NCBI RefSeq assembly: GCF_014243345.1
Contig: NZ_JACLZF010000001.1
Location: 1,302,001 to 1,366,000 of the forward strand
Source of the DNA: Robiginitalea sp. SC105
GTDB lineage: Bacteria > Bacteroidota > Bacteroidia > Flavobacteriales > Flavobacteriaceae
Length of the DNA stretch: 64,000 nucleotides
Direction: 5' to 3'
Below, in pieces: positions 27,840-58,930 of the stretch. Both the position numbers and the translations under genes were made by a program. The first letter of the stretch is position 1; every line of letters begins with the position of its first letter. The notes beneath the pieces were generated by a model. The model was not told where the DNA came from and searched no databases. It worked only from the letters and a program-made list of their open reading frames with translations.

Positions 27840-27874
27840 TTTTTCGTAATTTGATCAGGTAACCAACCTCAACC
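27840..27874 (+). promoter_or_regulatory. Shared leader before DUF6090 gene (copy b)
   Basis: Same 35-bp leader as at 26894-26928, one base different (GATCAGG for GATGAGG), ending at the ATG at 27875. Confidence 0.6.
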
Positions 27875-28636: not shown

Positions 28637-28713
28637 CGATCCTGGCGCCAAAAAGGGTCTCGTGCTGTCACTTTAGCCCGCTTACGGAACGCCTGAACAA
28701 AAAATTACATTTC

Positions 28714-29445
28714 ATGCTACGCTTCTTTCGCCAGCTCCGCCAGAGACTCCTTACTGAAAATAAGTTCCGCAAATACCTGCTGTATGCCATAGGGGAGATT
28801 CTACTAGTTGTTATTGGGATATTAATTGCACTTCAGATCAACAATGCGAATGAGTATTCCAAACAGAAACAACAATTATTGAAGTATGAACAAAACATTG
28901 TTTCAGAACTTAAGGAGGATTTAAAAATGTTGAATGGGCTGGATAGCTTAAATAGCGCTAAAGTTGGAACAATTCTTAGCTACATTAATTACTTTAAAAA
29001 TCCAACCAGAGATGCCGATACAGTAATTCAAAGAATGTATGACATTCAATATAATGGCGGCGTTTACAAAAGTATTGCCTATACGATTGATGAAATTATT
29101 AATACAGGAAACCTTTCACTCTTTAGTTCAGAGGCGAAAACAGCCATTCTGGAATTAAAAGCCATTCAGGAATTTTATGAAAAAAATAGAATAGAAGTAG
29201 AGCAAAAATGGGTGCTGAGCAATATTGAATTTGAAAATGCTATTGACTTAGTATCCTATAATGAATTTCCAACGGCTGAACTCAGAAACATGAAAGACTG
29301 GAGGTTTGATTTAGGGTCGGATCAATACAGATTATTCAATAATAAAACTCTGGCAGAATTGCGAGTCTTTTATTTTCGAACTGACCAGAACAATAAGATG
29401 AGGACTCACTCGGAAAAACTGCTGAATCTATTGGAAAAAAATTGA
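28714..29445 (+). CDS. DUF6090 family membrane protein, copy 4
   Basis: A 243-residue protein: MLRFFRQLRQRLLTENKF, KYLLYAIGEILLVVIGILIALQ, INNANEYSKQKQ. The upstream region lacks the shared leader of copies 2, 3 and 5. The soluble part (VSELKEDLKMLNGLDSLN) is again divergent. It is the last gene before the att-like site at 29533-29610. Confidence 0.8.
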   Translation: MLRFFRQLRQRLLTENKFRKYLLYAIGEILLVVIGILIALQINNANEYSKQKQQLLKYEQNIVSELKEDLKMLNGLDSLNSAKVGTILSYINYFKNPTRDADTVIQRMYDIQYNGGVYKSIAYTIDEIINTGNLSLFSSEAKTAILELKAIQEFYEKNRIEVEQKWVLSNIEFENAIDLVSYNEFPTAELRNMKDWRFDLGSDQYRLFNNKTLAELRVFYFRTDQNNKMRTHSEKLLNLLEKN

Positions 29446-32345: not shown

Positions 32346-34244
32346 ATGATTAAACGAAATTTTACCGGAATTTTCCTGAGCTCTTTTTTATTCCTGTTTA
32401 CAGGATGCGGGGAAGACAAAAAACCGGAGGCGTCAGATGGGGCCATGACGGGGAGTGAAGGCACCCCGGGAGCGGTCAGCGTGAACCCGAACAGGGAGGT
32501 TTACTGGGGGGATACGCATAACCATACCGGGAATTCCTTTGACGTTTTCTTATTCGGCACCCCGAATTCCACCCCGGAGATCGCCTACCGTTTTGCGAAG
32601 GGGGAGGAAGTGGAGAGTCCCACAACGGGCCGGCCCATGAAGCTCAGTAAGCCGCTTGATTTCCTGGTGGTGGCAGACCACGCCGAGCTGCTGGGGGCAA
32701 TACCCTTGATGTATGCAAATACACCGGGTATAACGGACACCAAAACGGGTGAGACCTTTTTAAAGATTGCCCCCGATAAATCCGAGGAGGGGCTTCAAAA
32801 GATTTACGACATACTCCAATATGCGGCGTTTGATCAGCCCAATGAAGCAAACCTCGGGAGCAAGGACCTGATCGGGGACCTTGGAGGTGATAAGCGGAAG
32901 GAAGCGTGGTTGCGTTATGTTGAAACCGCAGAGAAGCACCACGACCCTGGAACCTTTACGACGCTTATCGGTTGGGAGTGGTCCTCCAACAACAGGGGAG
33001 CGAACCTGCACCGTGTGGTGTTCATGCCCCAGGGAGGTGAGGTGGCAAAACAGTTCCTGCCCTACAGCGCGCTGAGCAGCGATAACCCTGAGGACTTGTG
33101 GGCGTGGCTGGAGCAAACCAGCACGCGGTTGGATGCAGAGTTTGTAGCCATACCACATAACCCCAATATCAGTCTGGGCCTTATGTTCCCCGAAACACGT
33201 CTGAATGGCGAACCGATAGACCGGGAATATGCCGAAATGCGGATGAAGTGGGAACGGTCTGTGGAAGTTACCCAGATAAAGGGTGATTCCGAAACCCACC
33301 CGGCCTTATCCCCCAACGATGAATTTGCTGATTTTGAAACCTATGATTTTGCAATTACACCAGACGGCAGTAGGCCTGCACCTACGGAAGCAGATTACGT
33401 GCGTTCGGGCCTCAGGCGGGGCCTGGCCCTGGAAAGCAAAATCGGGGTCAACCCCTATAAGGTGGGTATGGTGGGCAGTTCGGATTCCCATACCGGAATG
33501 TCCTCCATCGAAGAGACCAATTTTGCAGGCAAGGGGCAACATGATGCGCTTCCCGAGAAACGTCCGCATCCAACGGGTATAGGGTCTTCCAAGGGCTGGG
33601 ACATGGGCGCCGCCGGATGGGTGGGTGTCTGGGCCGAAAGCAATACGCGCCAGAGCCTGGTTGATGCTTTTCAGCGGAAGGAGGTTTACGCCACAACCGG
33701 TCCGCGTATGACCCTGCGCTTCTTCGGCGGATTTGATTTCTCCGAGGACGACATGAGCGGTGACATGGTAGCCTCCGGATACGAACGAGGTGTGCCCATG
33801 GGAGGGGATCTTGACCCGAATGGGGGACCGGCTCCAACATTCATGATCCGGGCCTTAAAAGACCCCGATGCGGCGAACCTGGACAGGATACAGGTGGTAA
33901 AAGGCTGGTTGGAGCCGGATGGCGAAACCATGGAGCGGGTCTATGACGTTGCCCTTTCCGACGGGCGTACGCATGGATCGGTAGCGGTGGGCAACACCGT
34001 GGACCTGGCAACCGGCCAGTACACCAATACCATTGGTGACCCGGAACTCCGGGTCGTATGGACCGATCCGGATTTTGACCCATCAAAAAGTGCTTTTTAC
34101 TATGTCCGCGTTCTGGAAATCCCCACCCCCAGGTATTCCCTTCTGGATGCTATAGAGCTGGGTATCCCGGTGGAGGAAACGGGGCATCCGGCCACCATTC
34201 AGGAACGGGTCTACTCATCCCCGATCTGGTACAACCCGGATTGA
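32346..34244 (+). CDS. DUF3604 family lipoprotein (PHP-like), copy 1
   Basis: A 632-residue lipoprotein (lipobox LFLFTGC, Cys21). It has the DUF3604 hallmarks: VYWGDTHNHTG with the H-x-H metal motif at His58-His60, DFLVVADHAE, GSSDSHTG, and GPRMTLRFF. These match PHP-phosphoesterase-like metal sites, so it is presumed a metallohydrolase in the cell envelope, with unknown substrate. It heads a likely operon with DUF3604 copy 2, a PPIase and a HupE/UreJ gene, a combination I know recurs in marine Bacteroidetes and Proteobacteria. Confidence 0.85.
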   Translation: MIKRNFTGIFLSSFLFLFTGCGEDKKPEASDGAMTGSEGTPGAVSVNPNREVYWGDTHNHTGNSFDVFLFGTPNSTPEIAYRFAKGEEVESPTTGRPMKLSKPLDFLVVADHAELLGAIPLMYANTPGITDTKTGETFLKIAPDKSEEGLQKIYDILQYAAFDQPNEANLGSKDLIGDLGGDKRKEAWLRYVETAEKHHDPGTFTTLIGWEWSSNNRGANLHRVVFMPQGGEVAKQFLPYSALSSDNPEDLWAWLEQTSTRLDAEFVAIPHNPNISLGLMFPETRLNGEPIDREYAEMRMKWERSVEVTQIKGDSETHPALSPNDEFADFETYDFAITPDGSRPAPTEADYVRSGLRRGLALESKIGVNPYKVGMVGSSDSHTGMSSIEETNFAGKGQHDALPEKRPHPTGIGSSKGWDMGAAGWVGVWAESNTRQSLVDAFQRKEVYATTGPRMTLRFFGGFDFSEDDMSGDMVASGYERGVPMGGDLDPNGGPAPTFMIRALKDPDAANLDRIQVVKGWLEPDGETMERVYDVALSDGRTHGSVAVGNTVDLATGQYTNTIGDPELRVVWTDPDFDPSKSAFYYVRVLEIPTPRYSLLDAIELGIPVEETGHPATIQERVYSSPIWYNPD

Positions 34245-34666: not shown

Positions 34667-36547
34667 ATGATTAAACAAAATTTTACCAGAATATTCCTGA
34701 TCTCATTTTTATTCCTGTTTACGGGATGCGGGGAAGACAAAAAACCGGAGGCGTCAGATGGGGCCATGACGGGGAGTGAAGGCACCCCGGGAGTGGTTAG
34801 CATAAACCCGAACAAGGACGTATTTTTTGGCAACCTTCACGTACATACCAAGTGGTCTTTTGATGCCTTTATCAATGGGGCCGCATCTGGTCCCGAGGAA
34901 GCCTACAGGTGGGCAAAGGGAGAGACCATCCCGGGTGGCGGAGATGGGACGCCCCTTAAAATTAAAACGCCACTGGACTGGTATGTGGTTGCAGACCATG
35001 CCGAATTCATGGGGGCCCTGCCCATGATGAACGACCCCAACAGTGCCGCTAGCAAACACCCCCTTGCAGCCGATATCATCGGAGACGACCCCGTTAAATC
35101 ATTCAATGCGTACACCGCAATCCTCGACGATATTTCGAACCGGAGAAACGACAGCATCCTCGGAAGCCCCGAGTTGCAGCGAAGTGTCTGGTCAGATATC
35201 GTAAGCATTGCAGACCAGCATTACGCCCCCGGCAGTTTTACAACTTTTGCAGGCTACGAGTGGACCTCCAACCCGGATTGGCAAAACCTGCACCGGATCG
35301 TCCTGTTCAGGGATACCGACCATGTCCCGGAGTTGCCCTTTTCGGCCATTGACTCGGATGTGCCGGAAAGGCTATGGGAATGGATGGACAATCAGCGTCA
35401 GTCCGGAAATGAAGTACTGGCCATACCGCACAATGGCAACGCCAGTGACGGTTTGATGTTCCCTGAAGAGAAATCCTATGGTGGCAGTGCTATTAACAAG
35501 GAATATGCCTCCACCCGGATGAGGAACGAACCGGTCTACGAGCTTACGCAAATCAAAGGTACTTCGGAAACGCATCCTGAACTTTCCCCGAATGACGAAT
35601 TCGCCTCTTTTGAACTATGGGATTATACACTGGCGTCCACGGCGACTCCTCCGGAGAACAAAAAGGGCGGCTACATGCGGGAGGCCCTTATCCGTTCGCT
35701 CAAATATGACATGGAGGGAAAGGGCAACCCTTTCAAGTACGGGTTTATCGGCGATTCGGACACCCATAATTCCGCATCTCCGGTAGAGGAAGACAATTAT
35801 TCCGGGAAATTCGGTTTTGAGAATGATCCCAAACATCGCCTGGACGGACCTCCGGGCGTCAGCGAGGCCGCGGCCAAACAGGTAAGGGAATTCAGTTCGG
35901 CAGGCATTGCGGCCGTCTGGGCAGTTTCAAACACGAGAGAAGCAATCTTTGAAGCAATAAAAAACAAGGAAACTTATGCCACTTCCGGTCCCCGGATGAA
36001 GGTGCGCTTCTTCGCTGGTTACGACTACCCGGAAAATCTGCTTGATATGTCTGGCTGGTTGGAAACCGCCTATGCCAGTGGCGTCCCCATGGGCGGTGAT
36101 CTTTCACCCGCCAGTGACGGAAAAGTACCGGTTTTTGCTATCCAGGCCGTCAAGGAAGCCGACGGAGCCAACCTGGACCGCATCCAGGTAATCAAGGGTT
36201 GGGTGGATGCAGGCGGCGCAACGCATGAAAAAATATACAATGTCGCCCTATCGGATAACCGCATGGCAGATGCAGCCGGAAATGTACCGGCCGTGGGGAA
36301 TACCGTGGATGCGGCCAATGCTTCCTATACCAACGATATCGGGGATGTGGAATTAATGGCCCTCTGGTCTGACCCGGACTTTGATCCGGCCCAGCATGCC
36401 GTATACTATGTCCGGGTCCTGCAGATCCCTACGCCACGATGGAGCACCTATGATGCCAAAACCCTGGGGAGGCAACCCAGGGAAGACCTGCCGGTGAGCA
36501 TACAGGAACGTGCCTGGAGCAGCCCGATCTGGTACAATCCCAATTGA
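34667..36547 (+). CDS. DUF3604 family lipoprotein (PHP-like), copy 2
   Basis: A 626-residue paralogue. The first 42 residues are almost identical to copy 1 (signal, lipobox, KPEASDGAMTGSEGTPG). The metal motif is here NLHVHTK (His58, His60) versus DTHNHTG in copy 1, so the H-x-H is kept but neighbours changed. DWYVVADHAEFMG and GDSDTHN are conserved, GPRMKVRFF matches. Overall the two differ enough to suspect different substrates. The gene is followed by the PPIase start 5 bp after its stop, so they are cotranscribed. Confidence 0.85.
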   Translation: MIKQNFTRIFLISFLFLFTGCGEDKKPEASDGAMTGSEGTPGVVSINPNKDVFFGNLHVHTKWSFDAFINGAASGPEEAYRWAKGETIPGGGDGTPLKIKTPLDWYVVADHAEFMGALPMMNDPNSAASKHPLAADIIGDDPVKSFNAYTAILDDISNRRNDSILGSPELQRSVWSDIVSIADQHYAPGSFTTFAGYEWTSNPDWQNLHRIVLFRDTDHVPELPFSAIDSDVPERLWEWMDNQRQSGNEVLAIPHNGNASDGLMFPEEKSYGGSAINKEYASTRMRNEPVYELTQIKGTSETHPELSPNDEFASFELWDYTLASTATPPENKKGGYMREALIRSLKYDMEGKGNPFKYGFIGDSDTHNSASPVEEDNYSGKFGFENDPKHRLDGPPGVSEAAAKQVREFSSAGIAAVWAVSNTREAIFEAIKNKETYATSGPRMKVRFFAGYDYPENLLDMSGWLETAYASGVPMGGDLSPASDGKVPVFAIQAVKEADGANLDRIQVIKGWVDAGGATHEKIYNVALSDNRMADAAGNVPAVGNTVDAANASYTNDIGDVELMALWSDPDFDPAQHAVYYVRVLQIPTPRWSTYDAKTLGRQPREDLPVSIQERAWSSPIWYNPN

Positions 36548-38814: not shown

Positions 38815-38828
38815 GTACTCGGGACGGG
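38815..38828 (+). other. attachment site, integrase-proximal end of island B
   Basis: GTACTCGGGACGGG is identical to 58845-58858, the acceptor/T-stem 3' end of the tRNA-Leu gene. The two direct copies enclose about 20 kb with a tyrosine recombinase at one end. Confidence 0.7.
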
Positions 38829-44117: not shown

Positions 44118-46790
44118 TTAATTACAATCCAATGAATAAACATCTTCTGGATCTTTGATCCAATTTGCCGGGATATTATCTAATTGTTCTTGAGTGACCT
44201 GAATACAGGATAATGGATTATTAGTAACATTGAATTGCGTCAGGTTCGAAAATGGGCTAGCATCAAAACTTGAGAAATTACAATTGGAAATATCAATCTG
44301 AAACAGATTCGGGTAAGTCAATTCTGAGAGTCCGAATCCAATAGAATTTAGTTTTGGATTGTTAGTTGCCAAAACTTCCTCCAAACCACTTGCCCCAGGA
44401 GAAGAAGGATCAAAACTAAAGGATTCTAAATTCAAGTTATTTGTAATAGTACACCTTCGAACACCTTGCAATGCTATTCCAGATGCTGGTAGTGAAATAG
44501 TAGACGGGTTATTAGAAAAAGTTAAGGAAGCAGAATAACCATCAAATAATTCAAGATTCTCAAAAGCCGAATTATTAATTATTTCCAATTCTTGGAAACT
44601 TGTTTCTACCATGAACAAGTCTATCAGATTCGGATTATTCGAAATGTTCACTATATCTGTATCAAAATCAGTGAAATAAACTATTTCCAAATTATCATTG
44701 TTGGAAATAACAATCGGATCAGTTTGGAAAGAGACATTACCGTTAAAATCAACTCTCCTCAGTTGAGCAAGTCCATTTAGAGTGAGTCCTCCTTTATATA
44801 TAATGCTTCCAGTAAAACTCAAGGAAGCCAGTGATATACAGTCCTCGATACCTGTAAAATCAACTTCTACCGGGTATGGTCCTGGAAACTGAATAGCACT
44901 TATTGCCAAGCTCTCAATTGATCTCATGTTCTGAGTTAAAACATAATCGTCCAAAACATCATCGTATCCATTATCTATCAAAAATTGCTCGAATTTATCA
45001 TCCGGAACAAAAGTTACCTGACACCCTTCATTATTTACCGTTGCCCCTGACTCCGTCCCGGCACAGGCATCTATGTCATCTGCTATGCCATCACCATCCG
45101 AATCCTTCTGGCTATCGGAGCATCCATCCGCATCAACAATTTCGCCACTGGGTGTATCGGGGCATAAATCATCATCATTATTTACCCCATCCCCATCTGA
45201 GTCTATTTGGGAAGAAGAGCAACCTTGAGGATTTACAGTTGCACCTGATGGGGTTCCCGGACACTCATCAATGCTGTCTGCAACACCATCGCCATCAGCA
45301 TCTTTCTGACTTTCTGAACACCCATTGGTGTCAACTGATTCGCCAGTAGGAGTGTTGGGGCATTGATCGTTATCATCTGCCACGCCATCTCCGTCTTCGT
45401 CCAGTTGGCTCTGTGAACATCCAACTCCATTGACTGCCTCCCCTGAGGGAGTCCCGGGACATTGATCAAGATCATTGCTAACGCCATCATTATCCGAGTC
45501 TTTTTGACTATCTGAACACCCATTGGCATCTACACTCTCTCCCGTTGGTGTACCCGAGCAATTATCCCGGTCATCGGTAACCCCGTCTCCATCTGTATCC
45601 TTTTGCCCATCAGAACAACCGTTGGCATCCACCGATGCTCCTGATGGAGTATTGGGACATTGGTCGATATTGTCTTTTACCCCATCATTATCGCTATCCT
45701 TTTGGGCATCGGAACATCCATCTGCATCAACCACAGCCCCATCGGCAGTATTAGGACATATATCGTCTTCGTCTAACACTCCATCTCCATCAGAGTCTTT
45801 TTGGCTATCGGAACAGCCGTTTTCATCAACCGTTTCTCCCTCAGGAGTCCCAGGGCATTGATCCAGATCATTGGTAACTCCATCACCATCTCCATCGGTT
45901 TCGGACGCAGAGCATCCAAACTCATCCACATCTTCTCCTTCAGGCGTATCCGCACATTGATCTATATCATCGGTAACCCCATCCCCGTCAGTATCCTTTT
46001 GACTTGGAGCGCACCCCTGGAGATCCACATTGGAGCCAACGGGGGTGTCGGGACATTCATCAACACTATCAATTACGCCATCTCCATCTGTGTCAATTTG
46101 CGAATCGGAACACCCATTCTCATCTACAGTTGCGCCTTCTGGAGTGCCTGGACATTGATCCAGACTATTAACCACTCCATCACCGTCTGTATCTTTCTGG
46201 CTCTCGGAGCATCCATTGCCATCAACCTCTTCACCCGAAGGTGTATCCGGGCAGAGGTCCAAGCTGTTGAAAACCCCGTCTACATCATCATCTAACTGGC
46301 TTTCAGAGCAGCCATCAGAATTTACTGTTTCCCCTTCTGGAGTTTCGCCGCAAAGATCATTGTTGTCATTAATTCCATCTCCATCAGAATCTGACTGTCG
46401 AACAGAACAGCCGTTTTCGTCAACCTCTTCACCGGGTTGGGTATTTGGGCATTGATCGACTTCATTAGCGACCCCGTCGCCATCCAGATCTTCCCTTACA
46501 AATACTGCGGTGACTTCAGTGTCTTTGGTGATTGTAAACTCCAGCGGATTAGAAGTGCCGTTGATATCGCCGATCCACCTTTCAAAATCATATCCGCCTG
46601 ATGGAATTGCTGAGAGCGTAAGCTTTGTTCCTGTTTCGTAACTGCCAGAGGTCGGGTTTATAGAACCTCCTTCTTCTGGAGAAACATCAATGGATAGGGC
46701 GAATTTTTCCGGTGGTTCTTTGGTACAGCCCAGATAAAGGATTGAAGCAAATCCAATAAGGAAAAATGATAGGAGTAATTGTCTTTTCAT
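44118..46790 (-). CDS. Large lipoprotein with 15 thrombospondin type-3 repeats
   Basis: An 890-residue protein: lipoprotein signal (ASILYLGC), an InlB-type B-repeat domain (about residues 28-95, SPEEGGSINPTSGSYETGTK), then 15 contiguous 33-residue repeats (about 97-595). Each repeat has D-x-D-x-D-G-D-G calcium-binding loops, one Cys before and one after (DQCPGTP...DENGCSDSQ). The last 290 residues are leucine-rich-repeat-like (NNDNLEIVYFTDFDTD) with regular N-L spacing. Such proteins are adhesins or surface scaffolds requiring calcium. The repeats are in-frame 99-bp units, so the gene could change repeat number by recombination. It sits in the island cargo. Confidence 0.85.
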   Translation of the reverse strand: MKRQLLLSFFLIGFASILYLGCTKEPPEKFALSIDVSPEEGGSINPTSGSYETGTKLTLSAIPSGGYDFERWIGDINGTSNPLEFTITKDTEVTAVFVREDLDGDGVANEVDQCPNTQPGEEVDENGCSVRQSDSDGDGINDNNDLCGETPEGETVNSDGCSESQLDDDVDGVFNSLDLCPDTPSGEEVDGNGCSESQKDTDGDGVVNSLDQCPGTPEGATVDENGCSDSQIDTDGDGVIDSVDECPDTPVGSNVDLQGCAPSQKDTDGDGVTDDIDQCADTPEGEDVDEFGCSASETDGDGDGVTNDLDQCPGTPEGETVDENGCSDSQKDSDGDGVLDEDDICPNTADGAVVDADGCSDAQKDSDNDGVKDNIDQCPNTPSGASVDANGCSDGQKDTDGDGVTDDRDNCSGTPTGESVDANGCSDSQKDSDNDGVSNDLDQCPGTPSGEAVNGVGCSQSQLDEDGDGVADDNDQCPNTPTGESVDTNGCSESQKDADGDGVADSIDECPGTPSGATVNPQGCSSSQIDSDGDGVNNDDDLCPDTPSGEIVDADGCSDSQKDSDGDGIADDIDACAGTESGATVNNEGCQVTFVPDDKFEQFLIDNGYDDVLDDYVLTQNMRSIESLAISAIQFPGPYPVEVDFTGIEDCISLASLSFTGSIIYKGGLTLNGLAQLRRVDFNGNVSFQTDPIVISNNDNLEIVYFTDFDTDIVNISNNPNLIDLFMVETSFQELEIINNSAFENLELFDGYSASLTFSNNPSTISLPASGIALQGVRRCTITNNLNLESFSFDPSSPGASGLEEVLATNNPKLNSIGFGLSELTYPNLFQIDISNCNFSSFDASPFSNLTQFNVTNNPLSCIQVTQEQLDNIPANWIKDPEDVYSLDCN

Positions 46791-47181
46791 ACAGAATTAT
46801 TGGGATAGCAGAAGAAATCGGAACTGAAATGAGCACCGATGGAGTTACCCAAGGCCATTTAAGAAAGGGGAAAGGAATTTAAGAATTATTAACAAGGGAA
46901 CATTGTACTATTCCGTAAACAGTAAAAAATACAGTATGAATAGCTTATCTGTTTTATAGTAGGTAACAATAAAAAGCAGGGTCTAAAATCGCATATTGAG
47001 GCGATTACAAGAGTTACTCTTGACCATTTAGCGACGATCTCCCCTGAAAGGTAGCTGAGGTCCACTCCGTATGAGATAATGCCTAAATGGGCAGACCGTG
47101 TACGATGATATTGCACCTCAGCACTTGGTCATGTATGGAATTTGCCAGGATTACCTTTAATTATCCCGAGGACAGCCGGGA
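46791..47181. other. Intergenic region, 391 bp
   Basis: Holds the first 67-bp repeat (47024-47090) preceded by TAGTAGGTAACAATAAAAAGC, also found before the fourth repeat. No gene. Confidence 0.6.
47024..47090 (+). repeat. 67-bp dispersed repeat, copy 1
   Basis: Ends CCATTTAG and CTAAATGG are inverted copies; inside are GATCTCC, GGTAGCTGAGGTCCACTCC and GAGATAATGC. Same orientation as the other three copies. Confidence 0.85.
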
Positions 47182-48210
47182 TTACTCCAGCGACAATACT
47201 TCCATTGTGGTAAGCTCCGGTGTCCCGCCGCGGTTGCCGCATCCCGAAGCGGTATACAAGTCTCCCTCAAATACGATCAGTCCGGTTCCGTGCCGTCCCT
47301 GGTTAAAATTCGGATAGGATTTCCATTCCCCGGTATCGGGGTGCACGCCTTCCACTTCGGCATGCGCCTTTTCCTGAACGGGGGATTCCCCGCCTGCCAC
47401 CAGGATGTGTCCGTCATATACCGTCGAGAAGGTTCCGGCACGTTCGGTCGGAATGGGGTGTGGCAGGGTAGTCCAGGTATTGCTGGCTATGTCATAGGCA
47501 TCTATTTCCGCGATCGTGCCCCCGAATGGAGTATCCGACGATCCGGTATTCCTACCGCCCAGGGCATAGATTTTACCGTTGTGCAAGGCGGCCTGAAAAT
47601 GGTCGCGCGTGCGCGGGGCGTCCGCCAGGACTTCCCAGGCACCGCTAGTCAGATCATAACTATCTGCCCACTTCTTATGGTCCCCGATATGTCCGTTTTT
47701 AATACCGCAGAACAGGTAGATTTTGTCTCCCATCACGATATTGCCGGTGGAGCCCCTTTGTCGGTCTTCCGGGATGGCATCCCCCATGTTCCAGGTATTG
47801 GTTTCCGTATCGTATATGTAGATATGATCGATGGGGTATTCCTCGGGCCAGCCCCCTGTCAAGGCTCCCACGATATAGACCTTGGTGCCGACCACAACCG
47901 GCTGAAAATGGTGCATTTCAATGGGGGGTTCCGGCCCTTTGGACCAGGTACCGGTTTGGGTATCATAGATGCTCACAGGGCGGATGCCGCGGCCGCCGAG
48001 CAGGTAGAATTTGTCGGCGACCCCCACAAAGGCGGCTTCATGCCGGGCGACAGGCTCGCTGCCGTCTGAGCTTTCCACGAAATGCCAGGCGGGATTACGG
48101 ATAGCCTGAGCGGTATCTACAGAGTTTTGCCGGGTATCGCCCTGATTTTTACAGGACAACAGGGATAGTGCCAGCAGCAGGGTGATATTGAGTGTTTGGA
48201 TGCGGGTCAT
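47182..48210 (-). CDS. Kelch-repeat lipoprotein
   Basis: A 342-residue protein with lipobox LLSC (Cys20) and a six-bladed Kelch propeller: repeats with GG preceded by a hydrophobic strand and WxxLPxxP-type ends (KFYLLGGRGIRPVSIYD, KIYALGGRNTGSS, HILVAGGESPV). Kelch lipoproteins bind proteins or sugars at the cell surface. It is GC-richer than its neighbours, suggesting a separate origin inside the island. It faces the first 67-bp repeat with its 3' end. Confidence 0.8.
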   Translation of the reverse strand: MTRIQTLNITLLLALSLLSCKNQGDTRQNSVDTAQAIRNPAWHFVESSDGSEPVARHEAAFVGVADKFYLLGGRGIRPVSIYDTQTGTWSKGPEPPIEMHHFQPVVVGTKVYIVGALTGGWPEEYPIDHIYIYDTETNTWNMGDAIPEDRQRGSTGNIVMGDKIYLFCGIKNGHIGDHKKWADSYDLTSGAWEVLADAPRTRDHFQAALHNGKIYALGGRNTGSSDTPFGGTIAEIDAYDIASNTWTTLPHPIPTERAGTFSTVYDGHILVAGGESPVQEKAHAEVEGVHPDTGEWKSYPNFNQGRHGTGLIVFEGDLYTASGCGNRGGTPELTTMEVLSLE

Positions 48211-48415
48211 AGCAAATGAATTTATCTATACAAAGGATCAAAGGGAAGAGATTTTAAAATACGTATTTTTCTCCGATCCTGGCTATGGTAACTACCCAAA
48301 GCCTATAATTCCTCATATCGAAAAGACGGGGTGGATTACCTGGAGTTAAATGCCTCTCAGAAATATGGCATGGAAAGGGATGGCCCCAGATTCTATATTT
48401 AAGTACCCGTATGGA

Positions 48416-48482
48416 CCATTTAGCCACGATCTTCTCTAAAAGGTGGCTGAGGCCCACTCCGATCGAGATGATGTCTAAATGG
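48416..48482 (+). repeat. 67-bp dispersed repeat, copy 2
   Basis: CCATTTAG and CTAAATGG inverted ends; about 80 percent like copy 1 by eye. Confidence 0.85.
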
Positions 48483-48541
48483 GCAGAGCGTAATCCGAAT
48501 CCTGTCCCTGGTTCTCAATCCTTTGAGCAGGAGAACAACAA

Positions 48542-48575
48542 TTTTCGTAATTTGATGAGGTAACCAACCTCAACC
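48542..48575 (+). promoter_or_regulatory. Shared leader before DUF6090 gene (copy c)
   Basis: TTTTCGTAATTTGATGAGG then TAACCAACCTCAACC, ending at ATG 48576, identical to the leader at 26894-26928 apart from the first base. Confidence 0.65.
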
Positions 48576-49298
48576 ATGTTCCGCTTCTTCCGCCAAATTC
48601 GTCAGCATCTCTTGTCTGATAACAAATTCAGCAAATACCTGCTGTATGCCATTGGAGAGGTCATTTTGGTGATGATAGGAATCCTACTGGCACTCCAGGT
48701 GAATAACTGGAACGAGACCAAAAGAACCAGGCGTTTGGAAAGGTCAACATTGATTGAAATTTCCAATGCCTTGCAGGCGGATCATGTTCAATTGGAAAGC
48801 TGGATATCCATAAAGCAGCTACAAGATTCTAATATTACTCGGATTCTCGATTATTTGCAGGACAAAGCGCCTTATACCGAAGAGCTGGATAATTCATGGC
48901 AATCGGGATTTTTGCGCCCTGTTTATTCTTTCAATACCTCGCCCTATGAATTACTCAAATCGAGAGGCTTTGAGATTATCGAAAATGACTCCTTGCGAAA
49001 GGACTTGCAGTACCACTATGATATTTCCATCCCGAACATGATTGATTACCTCGACAGGAATTATGAGTTGATGAGTTCATTCCGGAGTGAGTATTTAAGC
49101 CATTTTCATAAGAAGCCAAAGGGCCTATTGGGCCGATTCGCTCCCTCAAATATGGAAGCCCTTCGTTCGGAAGAGATATTGAACGGGCTTTCTGTTCTGG
49201 GTTTTTGGCACGAACACTCCCAGGAATGGCTGGGGAACTTGAAAAAAGAGACCGAAAAACTGAATGCCGGGATTTTAGAATACCTTAAAACACGTTAG
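48576..49298 (+). CDS. DUF6090 family membrane protein, copy 5
   Basis: A 240-residue protein: MFRFFRQIRQHLLSDNKF, KYLLYAIGEVILVMIGILLALQ membrane helix, VNNWNETKRTRRLER. The N-terminus is closest to copy 2 (26929), including the identical leader, so the two are recent duplicates at their 5' ends, while the C-terminal halves differ. Island cargo. Confidence 0.8.
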   Translation: MFRFFRQIRQHLLSDNKFSKYLLYAIGEVILVMIGILLALQVNNWNETKRTRRLERSTLIEISNALQADHVQLESWISIKQLQDSNITRILDYLQDKAPYTEELDNSWQSGFLRPVYSFNTSPYELLKSRGFEIIENDSLRKDLQYHYDISIPNMIDYLDRNYELMSSFRSEYLSHFHKKPKGLLGRFAPSNMEALRSEEILNGLSVLGFWHEHSQEWLGNLKKETEKLNAGILEYLKTR

Positions 49299-49312
49299 AC
49301 CGTCGGATATAG

Positions 49313-49444
49313 ATGATATCATTTTTTCGCCAGCTCCGCCAAAGACTCCTCACAGAAAACCGGTTCAGTAAATACTTGCTGTATGCTGTTGGTGAAATGA
49401 CATTCAAATTACGAATTGAAATAAGGATCAAGCAATTAGGGTGA
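49313..49444 (+). pseudogene. Truncated DUF6090 gene
   Basis: ATG 49313 opens with MISFFRQLRQRLLTENRF, SKYLLYAVGEM, the family N-terminus with the membrane helix cut after the GEM; the frame continues with unrelated KLRIEIRIKQLG and a stop at 49442-49444. It lies 14 bp after the complete DUF6090 gene, so it is a decayed sixth copy. Confidence 0.7.
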
Positions 49445-49506
49445 TCTTATTATGCGAGAAGTAAATTCAGAAAAAGTGTTTAGGGATAATTAAAATATAA
49501 GTTCCT

Positions 49507-49959
49507 ATGTCTAAATTTAATATTGCGCAGACCATTAGTGTATTAGCTAACGTAGCTGTACTTGGAGGACTCATTTTCTTAGCTTACGAAACTCGGCAAA
49601 ATACGACTCAGTTACGAGCAGCTGCATCATATTCCTTTACCGAAGCATTATACAATCTCAATTCAAGTGTTTATGATAATCAGCAACTGGCGGGTATAAT
49701 CACCCGGGGAGAACAAGACCTAGTTTTGCTGGATTCTATAGAGCTCGTGCAATTTGTGGCATACCAACTCGATAGAGTCAATCTGGCAATTCACATGAAA
49801 GTACTTGAGAGTGAAGGAGTTGTTGATGTTCAGTTTCCTTATGATGAATTTCTAATTCAAGAATTTCACAGAAAACCAGGGTTACAGCAGTTCATGGTAA
49901 TGATGGAAGGCAAATGGGTCGGAGCATCCGAACTATACAAAGAACTTCGACTCGATTAG
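49507..49959 (+). CDS. Small membrane-anchored protein of unknown function
   Basis: A 150-residue protein with one membrane helix (about 9-27, ISVLANVAVLGGLIFLAYE) followed by a soluble helical domain (TRQNTTQLRAAASYSFTEAL, a pattern seen in several bacterial hypothetical membrane proteins). The arrangement (short membrane N-terminus, helical tail) resembles DUF6090 proteins but the sequence does not. Confidence 0.6.
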   Translation: MSKFNIAQTISVLANVAVLGGLIFLAYETRQNTTQLRAAASYSFTEALYNLNSSVYDNQQLAGIITRGEQDLVLLDSIELVQFVAYQLDRVNLAIHMKVLESEGVVDVQFPYDEFLIQEFHRKPGLQQFMVMMEGKWVGASELYKELRLD

Positions 49960-50040
49960 CAATTGAAACTATGCCAGAAAGTCTAAAGAAGCTACCTGCT
50001 TAGATATTATTGATGTTGAGAATTTAGGTTCCCGTATCTA

Positions 50041-50107
50041 CCAATTAGCCGCGATCTCCTCCAAAAGGTAGCTGAGGTCCACTCCAATCGAGATAATGGC
50101 TAAATGG
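50041..50107 (+). repeat. 67-bp dispersed repeat, copy 3
   Basis: CCAATTAG (one mismatch) and CTAAATGG ends. Lies 106 bp before the leader of the cyclase gene. Confidence 0.85.
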
Positions 50108-50212
50108 GCAGGCCGTATCACCAATAGTCCGACCTCATTCCAATATTTTCCGCTCACTTTTACAATACTTGCGTCATTCTGATACTCAGTACATTGTAGT
50201 GTTGAAAGACTA

Positions 50213-50248
50213 TTTTTCGTATTTTGAAAAGGCATTCAACCACAACCA
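50213..50248 (+). promoter_or_regulatory. Leader of cyclase gene, resembles DUF6090 leader
   Basis: TTTTTCGTATTTTGAAAAGG followed by CATTCAACCACAACCA to ATG 50249; same layout as the DUF6090 leaders (TTTTTCGTA, TTTG, AGG, AACC). Suggests common regulation. Confidence 0.5.
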
Positions 50249-52204
50249 ATGTCGTTTCTTATTCCAAGACCTTATTTTTTACTTCTTCTAATAGCCCTAT
50301 CCTATTCGGTTGTGGGAAATGCTCAACTTTCTGATTGGGAGTCTGGAGAAATTGTAATTCAGGAAACCGATACAAACTATATCAAGAAGCTTATAAGTAA
50401 GGCTGAAGAGTTATCATTTTCCAACCCAGATTCTTCATTGATTGCTTCTGAAAAGGCACTTGAGCTTTCTGAAAGGCTTGGATATGATTTAGGCAAAGCT
50501 CAAAGCCTTAAGAATATTGGGATTGTCAGCTATTACAGAAGTGAATTTTTTATAGCTGAACAACATTTTCAGCAATCGTTGGAAGTATTTCAAAAGTCCG
50601 GAGATATCCTTGGCATCAGTAATTTGCAAAGCAACATAGGATCTGTTTATCTATCCATGGGGGATGATCCCAAAGCATTGGACCATTTTTTTGAGTCTTT
50701 GCGTAATGCAGAAATCGTCGATGACCCTATGCGCATCGGGACGGCCTATGTAAATATCGGCACGGTTTACAAAAATGACGAGCTGACCTATGACCCGGCG
50801 ATTGAATATTACCAGAAATCCGTGCCTTACTTTGAAGAAATTAATTATTCCATGGGGCTGGCTGCAGCCAATGTAAATCTCGGGGAACTCTATCTCGAAC
50901 TAGAAAAACCTGAATCCTCTCTGCCTTACCTGAATGATGCCCTGGATCACTTTAGGGAACTCGGGTTTGATCCGGCGACACCCCTTAATTTTATAGGTGC
51001 CGCTTACCTCAAAATGGAAGATTTTGCCAATGCAGAGGAATTTTACAAGCAGGCGCTGGCATCTTCTGTTGAAAAAAGTACCAAGTTCGAAGAAGCCGAA
51101 GCATATCTCGGCCTCGGTAATGTTGCTTTGCAACAACAAAACCCAGCTCTTGCGGTCAGTAGTTTTATCAGTGGGTTGGAAGTAGCCCAGAATGAGGGAC
51201 TGCTCCAGCAAACCAGAGATGCATATTTGGGGCTCTCAGAAGCTTATGCGCTGCAGAACGATTACCAGAATGCCTATGAGACGTACCAAAGGTTAAATGC
51301 TGCCGAGGATTCCCTCCGCAACAATGAACATGCAACAGTGCTGTCCCAACTCCGGTCAATTACGCATTCGAGGGAACGTACGTATGAAAATCAAAAGATA
51401 CAATATGAATTAGAAAGGAGTTTGGAAAAGGAAAAGGAGGAGCAAGCTAGACTACTTTTGTTTATAGGTTTGGGAGTTTTTGTTTTAATATCACTTGGAT
51501 TGCTAAATCGATTCATGTTTATACGCAAAGCCAGGAATAGAATAGCTGAAGAAAAAGATCGGTCTGATGAAATACTATTAAATATACTTCCTGAAGAAAC
51601 CGCTGATGAACTGAAGAAAAATGGCTCCATAAAAGCCAAGCAATTCAATGAAATCACTGTATTATTTACAGATTTCAAAGGATTTTCACTAATTGCCGAA
51701 CAATTATCCCCAGAGCAATTGGTGGAAAGCGTGGATTACTATTTCAGGTACTTTGATACGATCATAGAGAAGTATGGTCTCGAAAAAATCAAAACTATCG
51801 GAGATGCATATATGTGTGCTGCAGGCATACCCAGGCCGAGTGAAACACATGCTGAAGATGCATTAAAGGCTGCCATAGATATGCGCGACTTCGTGGAGAA
51901 GACAAAAGAGAATCCTCCTAAGAATATTTATCCTTTTGAAGTTCGCGTAGGTCTAAACTCAGGCCCCGTTGTAGCTGGTGTAGTAGGCACAAAGAAGTTT
52001 GCCTATGACATATGGGGAAGCACGGTAAACTTTGCCGCCAGGATGGAATCAAAATCAGAACCAGGAAGGATCAATGTCTCTGAAAGCACGTATAATCTCT
52101 TAAAAGACAAATATGACTTTACCTACCGTGGGGAAGTTGAGGTTAAGAATGGACAGTTGCTGAAGATGTATTTTGCAGAAGTAGAGTATGAACAGATCGC
52201 CTAA
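50249..52204 (+). CDS. TPR-containing membrane adenylate cyclase (class III)
   Basis: A 651-residue protein: signal sequence, about seven TPR units between residues 60 and 370, a coiled-coil and one membrane helix (about 397-418), then a class III cyclase domain (about 465-645). Metal-binding Asp475 (VLFTDFKGF) and Asp519 (IGDAYM) are present; Lys515 and Asp587 (KTIGDA and YDIWGSTVNFAARM) are the pair that specifies ATP over GTP. It should make cAMP, with the periplasmic TPR domain as sensor. Cyclases of this layout are frequent in Bacteroidetes, but their role there is not established. Confidence 0.85.
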   Translation: MSFLIPRPYFLLLLIALSYSVVGNAQLSDWESGEIVIQETDTNYIKKLISKAEELSFSNPDSSLIASEKALELSERLGYDLGKAQSLKNIGIVSYYRSEFFIAEQHFQQSLEVFQKSGDILGISNLQSNIGSVYLSMGDDPKALDHFFESLRNAEIVDDPMRIGTAYVNIGTVYKNDELTYDPAIEYYQKSVPYFEEINYSMGLAAANVNLGELYLELEKPESSLPYLNDALDHFRELGFDPATPLNFIGAAYLKMEDFANAEEFYKQALASSVEKSTKFEEAEAYLGLGNVALQQQNPALAVSSFISGLEVAQNEGLLQQTRDAYLGLSEAYALQNDYQNAYETYQRLNAAEDSLRNNEHATVLSQLRSITHSRERTYENQKIQYELERSLEKEKEEQARLLLFIGLGVFVLISLGLLNRFMFIRKARNRIAEEKDRSDEILLNILPEETADELKKNGSIKAKQFNEITVLFTDFKGFSLIAEQLSPEQLVESVDYYFRYFDTIIEKYGLEKIKTIGDAYMCAAGIPRPSETHAEDALKAAIDMRDFVEKTKENPPKNIYPFEVRVGLNSGPVVAGVVGTKKFAYDIWGSTVNFAARMESKSEPGRINVSESTYNLLKDKYDFTYRGEVEVKNGQLLKMYFAEVEYEQIA

Positions 52205-52302
52205 AATGCCTGACATTCCATCTCAATTAGACCTTATTTGAGACAGTACAACGTAAATCAAAAATTGGCCTGTTCTTTTTTCATGCCTTGGGCAGGAACC
52301 GC

Positions 52303-52593
52303 TTAGTTTTCCAGCGCTGCCAATCGAATCACCAGCCGCTCCCGCTTTTCAAGCAATACCAGATATTCGTTCTCCAGGTTTTTGACAATGGGGTTTTCCG
52401 AAGAGGAAGACCTAAGCAAACGCGTCATTTCCTGACCTAAATCCTCCAAGCGTTCAGTTAGGACTACCAGGGATTGTTCCAGACTGTCCCGGACCTGAAC
52501 GGTCTGAGTCGTTTCGGGTGCTATAACAGGTTCGGTTTGTGCCAGGCAATTGGAAGTCAGGGCGAAGGATAGAATGACCAATAGTTTTTTCAT
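52303..52593 (-). CDS. Small exported coiled-coil protein
   Basis: A 96-residue protein: signal peptide (MKKLLVILSFALTSNCLAQ) then a helical coiled-coil (LEQSLVVLTERLEDLGQEM, LENEYLVLLEKRERLVIRLA). Function unknown. Confidence 0.6.
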   Translation of the reverse strand: MKKLLVILSFALTSNCLAQTEPVIAPETTQTVQVRDSLEQSLVVLTERLEDLGQEMTRLLRSSSSENPIVKNLENEYLVLLEKRERLVIRLAALEN

Positions 52594-52957
52594 ATAAATG
52601 GGCTTTTTGGGAAGATGTTGGTTTAAGTCACAAGGATAGGCAAACTGGCCCAGGATTCCTTACAGCTATGCACAAATGACCTAAGAAACTGTGTCGCTGG
52701 TTCTATTCGTAGCCCCGTTAGAGATAAAACGTAAATTAAATACGTATCTGAAGTTCAGGTTACTCCAACAAAATCAACCATTCTCATTGTACGAACATAT
52801 AAGAAACTGGAAGATCGTTGCGGGGGTTGGCAAAAACAGCCTTAAAATATTTTAGTGGACCTATCCTACCTCTGGAAAGAAATCGTGGCTTAAATCCTGA
52901 ACGGTTACACGAATAAGAGCAAATAAAACCAGAAGGAGATAAAATGCATCACTAGTC
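52594..52957. other. Intergenic region, 364 bp
   Basis: AT-rich with no gene, repeat or terminator that I can support. Confidence 0.5.
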
Positions 52958-53362
52958 CTAAATAGATATAAAACCAAAACCACCAGAATAGATATCACCA
53001 GAAAATGAAATATACATAGCAGCAATAACAATAATTCCAACACCTGTGAAAAGCAGAACCGTTCTAATTGTGGAGGCATTTTTGTTCTTAAGGTAAATCT
53101 GTGTGTCAGGTGAGTCCTCAATTGGTATCCTCAGTTCATTCCCCAATTCCATTTTGACCCCGTAAAACCTGCCATTACTCTCGGTAAAAAATGCATAGTC
53201 ATCAACTGTCTTGCCAGCGGTAACTACTTTACCCCTGGCTCTGCCCTGTGCTGCCTGATGCAAAGACACAGGCGTTTTGTGGTAGACCACACAACTCTGG
53301 AACAAGATCAGGGAGTTCAATAGTAGTGCGCAAATTCTGAGGTTCTTCGATATTGGTTTCAT
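52958..53362 (-). CDS. VVYH-type lipoprotein, copy 4
   Basis: A 134-residue protein: lipobox LILFQSC, VVYHKTPVSLHQAAQ, a YAFFTESNGRFYGVKME segment, and a C-terminal membrane helix. Closest to copy 3 (24323). Like that copy, it is divergent from a gene for an exported protein, and the intergenic DNA is similar (AGGGGA, TGTCC, TTTTTCGGAC or ATTCGGAC). Confidence 0.7.
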   Translation of the reverse strand: MKPISKNLRICALLLNSLILFQSCVVYHKTPVSLHQAAQGRARGKVVTAGKTVDDYAFFTESNGRFYGVKMELGNELRIPIEDSPDTQIYLKNKNASTIRTVLLFTGVGIIVIAAMYISFSGDIYSGGFGFISI

Positions 53363-53509
53363 GCCTCTGGATTTATCTTAAACTAAAATAGACAGGGGAC
53401 TAGATAAGTGTGTCCAGTATTTTGCCGATGACAAGTTTTCGGACGTTCTACTACAGTTCCATGACTAAATTGATAGTATCCAATGGGGATAACCTTAAAG
53501 AAGTACTGT

Positions 53510-54067
53510 ATGCACATTTTCCGACTTTTTACGTATTCACTGATTGTGTTAATTCAAACCTCTTGTGTCATGGACGGATTTATGGATGGGGCTAATGATG
53601 TTCCCATGGGAGGGAATTGGGGTTTTGACTATGGAAATGAGCAAGAAAGAGCCCCAACTTTTTCGGGTTTCGATGCCGAACATGATTTCTTTTGTGAGAC
53701 ATCAGAAATTGCAAACGAAAATTGGCTTCCTGGCGATGTAGGTGTCTACTTTGATAGTGCCAAAAATGAATTTACGGTTAGTTTGATTCAATCAGACGGC
53801 GAATTATATGAGACCCATCAGAAAAATGTTTTTTACGATACGGACGGTAGGACCGGGACATATGAAATAATAGGTATATCCCCAATTTCGCGAACCTATA
53901 GGATGGTATATACAATCGATGGCAAAGAGCAAGTTGATATAGTAATTGGAGAACATGTTCCTGCGCAAAATGCGTCATACAACAAATGGATAGTTCCGGT
54001 AAATTGTAGGGATCAGGATGGGATATCACTATGGAGCGAAGTGTGGACCCAATATCAGTCTTTTTGA
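53510..54067 (+). CDS. Lipoprotein of unknown function
   Basis: ATG 53510 (or 53483) gives 185 residues with a lipoprotein signal (LFTYSLIVLIQTSC), then VMDGFMDGANDVPMG and DFFCETSEIANEN. The CETxExxNE segment and beta-rich rest resemble the lipoprotein at 25070. It is the divergent partner of VVYH copy 4. Confidence 0.55.
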   Translation: MHIFRLFTYSLIVLIQTSCVMDGFMDGANDVPMGGNWGFDYGNEQERAPTFSGFDAEHDFFCETSEIANENWLPGDVGVYFDSAKNEFTVSLIQSDGELYETHQKNVFYDTDGRTGTYEIIGISPISRTYRMVYTIDGKEQVDIVIGEHVPAQNASYNKWIVPVNCRDQDGISLWSEVWTQYQSF

Positions 54068-54171
54068 TTAAAACCTAACTTTCTTCTCTCTCCCTTAGTA
54101 GGTAACAATAAAAAGCGAGTTCGGTTAAAGGCCAAGGCCGTTGTAAAGGTTACCGTATCGACTATTTAGCC

Positions 54172-54238
54172 ACGATCTCCCTAAAAAGATAGCTGAGGTA
54201 CATCCCAAGAGAGATAATGCCTAAATGGGCATACGGTT
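54172..54238 (+). repeat. 67-bp dispersed repeat, copy 4
   Basis: CTATTTAG and CTAAATGG ends. Preceded by TAGTAGGTAACAATAAAAAGC (54098-54118), as copy 1. Most diverged copy. Confidence 0.8.
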
Positions 54239-54303
54239 ATTTTAATAATCCAACTGCATCGGAGTATTAAAAGCAGCATTTTTACTGCTATGTCAAAATA
54301 TTC

Positions 54304-54993
54304 TTAAACCTTGTATTCCCAATTATCACTTGATTCTACACCGCGAAGAATATCCAGGATCATTCTAAAATCCTTTGCAAATTCTTCATCGCTTTGATTG
54401 TATATTTCCGAACCGCTATACCTCAACATATCCCATCCAGAACTTTTTAAATCCCTTGTTCGTGCATTGTCCCTCTTTATCTGATCTTTGGTTGAATGAA
54501 AAGCATGTCCATCGCATTCAATTCCCAAAAAGTACCTTTTATTTGATTTGCCGAAGTGATTCCTGAAATCCAGTATTAAACCAACATCAACACTGTAGAA
54601 TTTCTCCGATTTTTTGCAATAAACCTTTCTCTGAGGAATAACTTCCAGAAAGGCTCTGACTGATTCTGGAGTATTAAGAAATTCAACATCTTGAATAGGT
54701 TGATTGATAAAACTAGCATTTATTATGTATCGTCCTATATAGGCCTTAGGTTCTATTCCTTTTACTTTCGCCTGGTACTTAAAGTCCATTTCAGCAACCT
54801 CATATGATTCCTCAAAACTCCAATTGTAAAATGAATAATCTTGGCTTCTTTCTGATTCAATAAAATTCAATATCCTTAAAAGGAACAATCTTTCAATAGG
54901 AGAGTCAGAAGCGTTAAGAAAGGAATCAATCCTACTACGGACACCTGCTAATATTTGCTCCATTTTATTTGAATTTTTTTCATCTATATTCAT
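54304..54993 (-). CDS. PD-(D/E)XK-like nuclease (DUF559/Vsr-type)
   Basis: A 229-residue protein. The C-terminal half shows the nuclease-fold signature VDVGLILDF then FLGIECDGHAFHSTKDQ and DNARTRDLKSSGWDMLRYS, which is the pattern of DUF559/Vsr-type endonuclease-like proteins (active-site Asp and Glu-x-Asp-His). The N-terminal 100 residues are helical. It could act in DNA repair or defence; cargo position suggests the latter but the sequence does not prove it. Confidence 0.7.
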   Translation of the reverse strand: MNIDEKNSNKMEQILAGVRSRIDSFLNASDSPIERLFLLRILNFIESERSQDYSFYNWSFEESYEVAEMDFKYQAKVKGIEPKAYIGRYIINASFINQPIQDVEFLNTPESVRAFLEVIPQRKVYCKKSEKFYSVDVGLILDFRNHFGKSNKRYFLGIECDGHAFHSTKDQIKRDNARTRDLKSSGWDMLRYSGSEIYNQSDEEFAKDFRMILDILRGVESSDNWEYKV

Positions 54994-57471: not shown

Positions 57472-58770
57472 ATGGACTTGTTTAAAAACAAAAAACTAAA
57501 ACAATGTGAAAGAGAAAAGCAATCTCTATTAGATAAGTACTCTGAAATTATTGATTTAGAAGATGAAATAGAAAAAGTAAACAAACAACTTTCTGAAATT
57601 CAGTCAGAACGTGCTAGGATTGCTGTAGATTACGAAAGAGGCAAGAAAAAGTTGGAGGATCTTGTAGAGGAAACTAAGGTTTATGAAAGTAAGTTGGACC
57701 TTGTTTCATTTGGTCACTATGACCCGATTTTCAATTTTGATGATTCAGATAGTTACAAGAGAAAAATTGAAGAAATTGTAGCACAACAAAAATCAATGAT
57801 AAAATCGGGCCTGGCCTGTTACGAAGTTGAGGGCCATGAATGGAAGTCAAGAAAAGCCTTCATTTCAATCGTAAAAACTATGATGAAAGCTTTTAATGGA
57901 GAATGCAATAATTTGATTTCCCGAGTTAAATGGAACAATATTTTGACATTTCAAAAGCGAATAGAAAAAGAATATAACTCCATCAACAGAATTAATAAAA
58001 ACAATAACATAGAGATTAAACCACTTTACAAAAAGCTCAAAATTGATGAGTTAAGGGCTACATATGAACATCGGTTAAAAAAGCACCAGGAGAAAGAAAA
58101 GCAAAGGGAGGAAAGAGCTAGAATAAGAGAAGAAGAACGAGCCCAAAGGGATTTTGAAATAGCAAGAAAAAAGGCCGAAAAAGAGGAAGCTTTTTATCAA
58201 ATGGCACTTGAAAAAGCTAAAAAGGACTTAGGCCTTGTGAGTGGTGAAAAATTAAGTGAACTGGAGAGTCAAATAACAAATTTGGAAGAAAAATTAAAAT
58301 TTGCCCACGAACAAAGAGAAAGGGCAATTTCCATGGCACAACAAACCAAATCTGGTTATGTCTATGTGATTTCTAATGTAGGCTCCTTTGGAGAGGATAT
58401 ATATAAAATTGGCCTAACTCGAAGGTTAGAACCTTTAGACCGTGTCAGAGAGCTTGGCGATTCTTCTGTTCCTTTTAGATTTGATGTGCATGCCATGATT
58501 TACTCCAATGATGCTCCAGCCTTGGAATATGAGCTTCATCAAACCTTTAAAGACAAGAGTCTTAATCTAGTAAATTTCCGAAAAGAGTTTTTTAAGGTTT
58601 CCCTGGATGAAATAGAAAGAGCGGTAAACAAAATAGTAGAAAACGAAGTAGAGTTTGTTCGTGTAAAAGAAGCGCAAGAGTATAGAGAGTCAATTTCTAT
58701 TCGTGAAAAAGTTAATGAAGAGCGAGAAAAGGAAATTGATCTCCCCAGATTTCCCAATAGTATCTTTTAA
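57472..58770 (+). CDS. DUF4041/GIY-YIG (T5orf172) protein
   Basis: A 432-residue protein: N-terminal coiled-coil (about 10-80), a DUF4041 region (about 85-180, including ACYEVEGHEWKSRKAFISIV), a second charged coiled-coil (200-290), and a C-terminal T5orf172/MUG113-type GIY-YIG-related domain (YVYVISNVGSFGEDIYKIGL, about 300-400). Such proteins are common in phages and mobile elements and are suspected of nuclease or defence roles; the domain here lacks a clearly complete catalytic set that I can confirm. It is the last gene of the island. Confidence 0.8.
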   Translation: MDLFKNKKLKQCEREKQSLLDKYSEIIDLEDEIEKVNKQLSEIQSERARIAVDYERGKKKLEDLVEETKVYESKLDLVSFGHYDPIFNFDDSDSYKRKIEEIVAQQKSMIKSGLACYEVEGHEWKSRKAFISIVKTMMKAFNGECNNLISRVKWNNILTFQKRIEKEYNSINRINKNNNIEIKPLYKKLKIDELRATYEHRLKKHQEKEKQREERARIREEERAQRDFEIARKKAEKEEAFYQMALEKAKKDLGLVSGEKLSELESQITNLEEKLKFAHEQRERAISMAQQTKSGYVYVISNVGSFGEDIYKIGLTRRLEPLDRVRELGDSSVPFRFDVHAMIYSNDAPALEYELHQTFKDKSLNLVNFRKEFFKVSLDEIERAVNKIVENEVEFVRVKEAQEYRESISIREKVNEEREKEIDLPRFPNSIF

Positions 58771-58844: not shown

Positions 58845-58858
58845 GTACTCGGGACGGG
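58845..58858 (+). other. attachment site, tRNA end of island B
   Basis: GTACTCGGGACGGG within the tRNA-Leu 3' end, identical to 38815-38828. Confidence 0.7.
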
Positions 58859-58930
58859 ACTTGAACCCGTACGGCCGCAATGGCCATTGGATTTTAAGTC
58901 CAACGTGTCTACCAATTCCACCACCCGAGC
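58846..58930 (-). tRNA. tRNA-Leu (anticodon UAA)
   Basis: 85 nt without encoded CCA. Acceptor stem GCTCGGG pairs with CCCGAGT (G-U at the end), D-arm TGGTGGAATTGGTAGACACG, anticodon loop CTTAAAA (UAA), long variable arm, T-arm with GTTCAAGT. Intact despite the insertion, so the element regenerated the tRNA 3' end. Confidence 0.95.

Follow-up and report, generated by a model that had tools for sequence, protein, structure and literature searches.

Same-orientation repeats between gene modules in Robiginitalea sp. SC105: possible seams of a cassette-like array

We analyzed a stretch of 64,000 nucleotides from Robiginitalea sp. SC105, called the window (C1:1302001-1366000; C1 is one of the three contigs of the 3.58 Mb genome). 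Four copies of a short intergenic repeat, w1 to w4, lie in the same orientation in an island of this window. The modules between the repeats consist of 1–4 genes each, mostly unrelated and on either strand. The features of the locus are listed in Table 1.

Table 1. Repeat copies, module genes and island ends in the window (positions in the window; aa, amino acids)
Feature	Position	Strand	Remarks
14-nt match to tRNA-Leu 3′ end	38815–38828		adjoins integrase; probable left island end
Tyrosine integrase of the island, phage type	38997–40049	+	
Short repeat AGTAGGTAACAATAAAAAGC, left-flank type U1, before w1	46957–46991	+	direct repeats D6, D9
Repeat copy w1, 96-nt unit	47010–47105	+	core 47024–47090; model match 100.4 bits
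Kelch-repeat protein, module gene	47182–48210	-	79% DNA identity over 896 bp to C2 407975–408870
Repeat copy w2	48402–48497	+	core 48416–48482; model match 98.3 bits
DUF6090 protein, module gene	48576–49298	+	
150-aa protein, no Pfam match, module gene	49507–49959	+	
Repeat copy w3	50027–50122	+	core 50041–50107; model match 102.7 bits
TPR + adenylate/guanylate cyclase domain protein, module gene	50249–52204	+	
96-aa protein, no Pfam match, module gene	52303–52593	-	
Possible degenerate inverted copy, right block lost	52823–52909	-	weak: 13.7 bits, E 0.36; inverted repeats I1/I2
134-aa lipoprotein-like protein, module gene	52958–53362	-	homologues in C2 cluster
194-aa protein, module gene	53483–54067	+	by eye, similar to the 210-aa protein that precedes C2 copy b1
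U1 short repeat before w4	54088–54122	+	direct repeats D6, D9
Repeat copy w4	54148–54243	+	core 54162–54228; model match 91.2 bits
tRNA-Leu(taa)	58845–58930	-	inferred attachment site, right island end

Repeat copies and their islands

A model search of the genome detected 16 repeat copies at E ≤ 0.0015, and all 16 are on the same strand. Four copies are in the window and 12 are on contig C2 (409180–428177). Outside these two clusters, no further copy was found by this search at the same threshold. The model search scored 69 of 844 first-look candidates and the BLAST search scored 18 of 18. When w3 was used as the BLAST query against the whole genome, the other three window copies were matched with E values of 5e-24, 3e-18 and 6e-18. 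The pairwise likeness of the copies is only ∼74–86% by BLAST. Five of the 12 C2 copies, truncated or degenerate, have less than 50 bits. One more match, the 17th, is on the opposite strand (E 0.06); here the near-palindromic copy w4 matches its own sequence.

Eleven copies were aligned. The conserved unit is ∼84–96 bp, with conservation from about column 7 to column 90 of the 96-nt alignment, in agreement with an earlier estimate of about 90 bp made from the letters of the window (the sequence-only reading). Conserved blocks alternate with variable spacers, whose length is fixed in 10 of the 11 copies. The ends carry GTTACC-like letters on the left and ACCGT(G) on the right. The inverted arms are imperfect, with 73.9% of cells paired over 23 pairs.

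The sequence-only reading had described four 67-bp copies in the same orientation. The constant core length was found in all four copies, and the starts at 47024, 48416 and 50041 are correct; the fourth core starts at 54162 and not at 54172, 10 positions away. As for the conserved inverted ends, the right end CTAAATGG is exact in all four copies, but the left end CCATTTAG is exact in only two (the others are CCAATTAG and CTATTTAG). Likewise, the internal core GGTAGCTGAGGTCCAC is exact in two window copies, and the other two have GGTGGCTGAGGCCCAC and GATAGCTGAGGTACAT. The repeats had been described as confined to the island cargo, which holds within the window, but the larger cluster is on the other contig. 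The reading as a repeat family outside the known RNA families was supported. It was to fail if the genome held no additional copies and no covariation was seen, with termini diverging at random; additional copies were found, and covariation above shuffles was not.

The window cluster is in an island of ∼20 kb between the integrase side (38815) and tRNA-Leu. Another part of the same tRNA-Leu query gave a chance 13-nt match at window 51387. Most of the C2 cluster is flanked by a duplicated tRNA-Arg 3′ end, which stops at C2 411545, and by tRNA-Arg itself at C2 429275; the match around the duplicated end is 138 bp at 88%. One C2 copy, k409, is outside this island, to the left of the tRNA-Arg end copy. 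With a GC content of 0.401, the window island is poorer in GC than the adjoining stretches (0.495–0.606), and so is the C2 array with 0.415.

The two clusters share genes as well as repeats. A 520-bp block of the window (52223–52742), which holds the 96-aa gene, is 93.8% identical to C2 410923–411440, which points to a recent exchange between the clusters. The region of the lipoprotein-like gene is 83% identical over 165 bp. The strands of the genes flanking the 16 copies, read by eye, are (-,-) in 7 cases and (-,+), (+,+) and (+,-) in 3 cases each. Genes beside the copies are thus on either strand, and therefore gene direction does not set repeat direction. The GC skew is too small to decide whether replication bias caused the orientation.

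The repeat was also searched for elsewhere. It was not found in plasmid and phage records (one query), in IMG/VR contigs (two patterns) or in GTDB contigs (one degenerate pattern; near relatives were perhaps left out there). A DNA search of 118 other relatives did not find it either. When 59 other relatives were searched with the model, no match had an E value under 0.1, and 7 weak matches (E 0.13–0.95) were taken as chance. Among 298 other genomes of the family, the model search with strict filters gave no convincing copy and two weak single matches (26.5 and 24.5 bits; per-genome E 0.014 and 0.037, with ∼11 expected by chance at the latter level). One match, in genome G209, covers 33 nt that are ∼82% like the right half of the repeat and scores above its 100 shuffles; judged from this likeness, it may be a remnant. 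In 8 stretches around relatives of the 134-aa protein, there was no repeat-model match below E 2.7, and the direct repeats in these stretches are mainly inside genes (L066, by coordinates), in DUF6090 genes (L070) or in isolated pairs (L066, L073). No such array was seen in four islands of other genomes that have related integrases; two isolated repeat pairs in these islands form no family. We found no description of this repeat in the literature, which is no proof of absence.

Flank families and breakpoints

We compared the 150-bp flanks of the 16 copies; the maximum score of 400 shuffles was 25. Left flanks form the families {w1, w4, b3, b4, b7, d421} and {w2, b1}. Right flanks form the family {w2, k409, b4, d428}, which w3 joins more weakly. 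This right-flank family is the leader of DUF6090 genes, and the leader to the right of w2 is also found behind three C2 copies. The right-flank pair {f411, b6} is just above chance and the pair {b2, b7} is at chance level. Eight of the 16 copies have a clear left-flank relative; no relative above the shuffle maximum was found for the left flank of 6 copies and the right flank of 9. The left and right families are discordant. For example, w2 and b4 are alike on the right side and unlike on the left side. Such discordance is what recombination in or next to the repeat leaves behind.

We then scanned the alignment by partial correlation in 14 windows over the 16 copies (28 tests), with three truncated copies partly blanked by hand. 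Right-flank kinship predicts identity at columns 81–94 only (p 0.001). Left-flank kinship predicts identity weakly in four windows (p 0.026–0.05), the last of which is columns 57–70, and it does not predict identity past column 70. A left-flank signal up to about column 70 and a right-flank signal at columns 81–94 hint that the exchange took place close to the repeat's 3′ end.

Our preferred explanation, which we hold tentatively, is that the repeats mark seams in a cassette-like array whose modules were joined by recombination. The single strand, the two clusters, the reassorting flanks, the low GC and the largely tRNA-borne islands are consistent with it. Recombination in or close to the repeat, possibly near its 3′ end, would have joined modules, removed some and exchanged others, and so the repeat would have the role that attC has in an integron array. 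The truncated and degenerate copies suggest decay, and the array is probably decaying. If the seams work or recently worked, they would mean that modules are stockpiled in bacteria outside the usual integron criteria. Even decayed seams would show how the cargo of islands gets reassorted.

A second short repeat (CTTAGTAGGTAACAATAAAAAGC...) has 7 matches on the + strand of the window and C2, and 6 of these 7 are before copies of the main repeat. The C2 matches are at 414877, 418256, 419303, 421180 and 426938. Two weaker matches on the opposite strand are elsewhere on C2.

DUF6090-like genes occur in many copies, identified mostly by eye, at window 26894–28853, at C2 398396–401640, 410099, 416400 and 417399, and in L070. 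Their starts are strongly conserved over ∼110–190 bp and the remainder is variable; several have a common leader of ∼31 bp. The conserved start is perhaps another recombination anchor.

Comparison with integrons and other explanations

The same genome has a separate integron-like locus at C2:250000–260350. A 410-aa Xer/IntI-like recombinase on the reverse strand (C2:259114–260346; L080:9114–10346) is followed by small genes on the same strand. The hairpin sites between these genes end in GTT boxes (by eye; six were found by the model described below). The recombinase passes the cut-off of NF040815 and not that of the integron-integrase model TIGR02249. Its alignment to the V. cholerae integrase 2a3v falls into two pieces that leave out chain residues 206–245, the region of the IntI-specific insert. 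The lack of the insert was read from the integrase of this genome.

We collected the best 80 of 311 recombinase relatives in GTDB contigs (loci L095–L174, mostly Flavobacteriaceae); among the named loci, those that hold the closest relatives belong to Robiginitalea and Eudoraea. A first pattern for attC-like sites was too strict (6 sites) and a second gave 77 sites. A covariance model, R2, was built from 45 of these 77, with at most two per locus. In the 80 loci together, R2 found 219 attC-like sites at E ≤ 0.001, of which 45 are training sites matching by construction, and all 219 are on the integrase strand. On ten stretches of this genome, R2 gave 6 matches, all in the C2 integron, which was outside the training set (4 at E < 1e-5 and 2 at 0.03–0.08). 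On the whole genome, it gave 5 matches, four in the integron, one at C1:522924 and none in the repeat arrays. Flavobacteria appear to hold many integron-like arrays with relatives of the insert-lacking integrase. The IntegronFinder 2.0 survey names one complete integron in Bacteroidetes (PMC9024848), so such arrays may be widely missed. These flavobacterial arrays may matter more than the repeat itself.

The repeat arrays resemble integron cassette arrays and clusters of attC sites lacking integron integrases (CALIN) in several respects. The repeat is ∼100 bp long, intergenic, has inverted ends and a single orientation, and small accessory genes stand between the copies. As in CALIN, the C2 cluster has no tyrosine recombinase gene. 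The flavobacterial integron-like arrays (L095–L174 and C2:250000–260350) come from the same bacterial group, also have same-orientation sites between genes, and share cargo such as DUF6090-like and SnoaL-like proteins and lipoproteins (integron cargo by eye). However, their sites are mostly ∼132 nt with AACAMCGTGTATAATTAATTGC...GTT ends, and the model of the repeat found no match better than E 2.6 in the 80 loci. The R-box pair of an attC site consists of AAC at its 5′ terminus and GTT at its 3′ terminus, and this motif is also seen in the flavobacterial attC-like sites. Unlike integron arrays and CALIN, the repeat has neither these boxes nor a match to the attC model, the genes are on both strands, and some modules hold several genes. 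The comparisons of model, boxes and loci show an array that is cassette-like in layout and not a known type of attC array. The identity of the repeat as a flavobacterial attC was ruled out by the model and by the boxes. Two rule-based attC scanners of our own had been dropped, as they did not separate the integron from control regions.

Several observations weigh against a cassette-like array. In the 11 aligned copies, AAC...GTT boxes are absent on either strand, and R2 has no match in the window or the C2 array, though it finds the genome's own integron. Of the five tyrosine recombinases found in the genome, one is in the window island and the C2 cluster has none; no member of this set is linked to the repeat. 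The modules have genes on both strands, and some contain several genes. Some flank scores fall outside the neat families (w1-d428 left 31, b5-b7 left 26, w2/b1-d421 left 29). The breakpoint scan is weak, as the four left-flank p values stand among 14 tests, the last alignment columns border the right flank, and the truncated copies were blanked by hand. Hand-picked pairs are less clear: right-sharing pairs stand out at columns 91–96 only. In the pair k409/d428, the break is at the left edge. Truncated copies end at differing columns. No related genome was found in which the same array shows gain or loss. The degenerate opposite-strand copy at window 52823–52909, also a point against, is only suggestive.

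A dedicated system may not be needed. An intergenic spacer could have spread by segmental duplication, after which ordinary homologous recombination, among direct copies and across the two islands, deleted, duplicated and swapped genes; we regard this as rather doubtful. Recombination between direct repeats preserves a single orientation, the gene blocks common to both clusters are 79–94% identical, and the repeat is duplicated together with the DUF6090 leader in four places. The left-flank relatives of half of the copies and the differing breakpoints of the truncated copies also fit. However, the inter-repeat genes are mostly unrelated, which is not expected from tandem duplication alone, and many flanks have no relative above the shuffle maximum. 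In addition, repeats of such low likeness are poor substrates for homologous recombination today. A dedicated system of another kind, in which the repeat is the ∼90-bp site of a second, non-integron cassette system without GTT boxes, is quite unlikely. There, modules would be swapped by a tyrosine recombinase that cuts near the 3′ end; the island integrase and the Xer/IntI-like enzyme would be candidates.

The sequence-only reading had proposed a miniature inverted-repeat transposable element (MITE), a repetitive extragenic palindromic (REP) element or a structured RNA, and neither type of proposal held up as it was stated. Like MITE and REP elements, the repeat is short, intergenic and imperfectly palindromic, and has no coding signal. 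A short non-autonomous element could have entered permissive islands several times, favouring one orientation, for example through single-strand transposition. Its constant length, the unrelated flanks of part of the copies, and an exact TTAC at the same left place in 4 of the 11 aligned copies (by eye) would agree with this. In contrast to such elements, the repeat is limited to two clusters in 3.6 Mb with all copies on one strand, and its left and right flank families reassort. For target-site duplications of 4–6 bp, no choice of boundary beat permuted flanks in the 11 copies; old copies may have lost them. The RAYT-type Y1 transposase (PF01797), expected with a REP or IS200-IS605-derived element, had no match in the genome at E ≤ 0.01, whereas 6 of 14 control genomes have a match. 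No convincing copies were found in relatives, phages or plasmids. We therefore consider insertion of a MITE-like element unlikely. A structured RNA or a cis-regulatory element before or behind each gene is very improbable. The left block has two alternative pairings, one to the internal core (92.6% of cells paired) and one to the right block (73.9%), and the bottom strand of w4 folds better than its own shuffles (z -2.81; the values for w1, w2 and w3 are -0.12, -0.81 and +0.63). However, covariation in the 11 copies was not above shuffles, 7 of 10 fold z-scores are within 1 of zero, and position and strand relative to genes are not fixed. The four window copies matched nothing in Rfam; the only match listed, with E 2.4, is at 50898–50923, away from them. 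A coding peptide was rejected as well. One reverse frame is open in most copies, but 4 stops were observed and 4.1 were expected, and the synonymous changes fit a neutral simulation (10 of 11 copies; b7 was dropped for a gap).

No serine recombinase was found in the genome, and a limited look showed no empty sites without the repeat.

Other genes of the window

Tandem genes at window 32346–34244 and 34667–36547 encode proteins of 632 and 626 aa, which are presumably DUF3604-like. Their starts lie in a stretch of ∼388 bp that is 86% identical. The minus strand of window 44118–46790 encodes an 890-aa protein with a run of 14–15 repeats of 99 bp. These repeats are TSP3-like, with weak matches below curated cut-offs.

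To the right of w4, the protein encoded at window 54304–54993 is MTES_1575/DUF559 endonuclease-like. Far below the curated cut-off, it also resembles the C-terminal region of large defence proteins, Hhe among them. At the right island end, the protein of window 57472–58770 strongly matches PD-Lambda-1, an anti-phage defence family in PADLOC (E 9e-153), and also has T5orf172/MUG113 domains.

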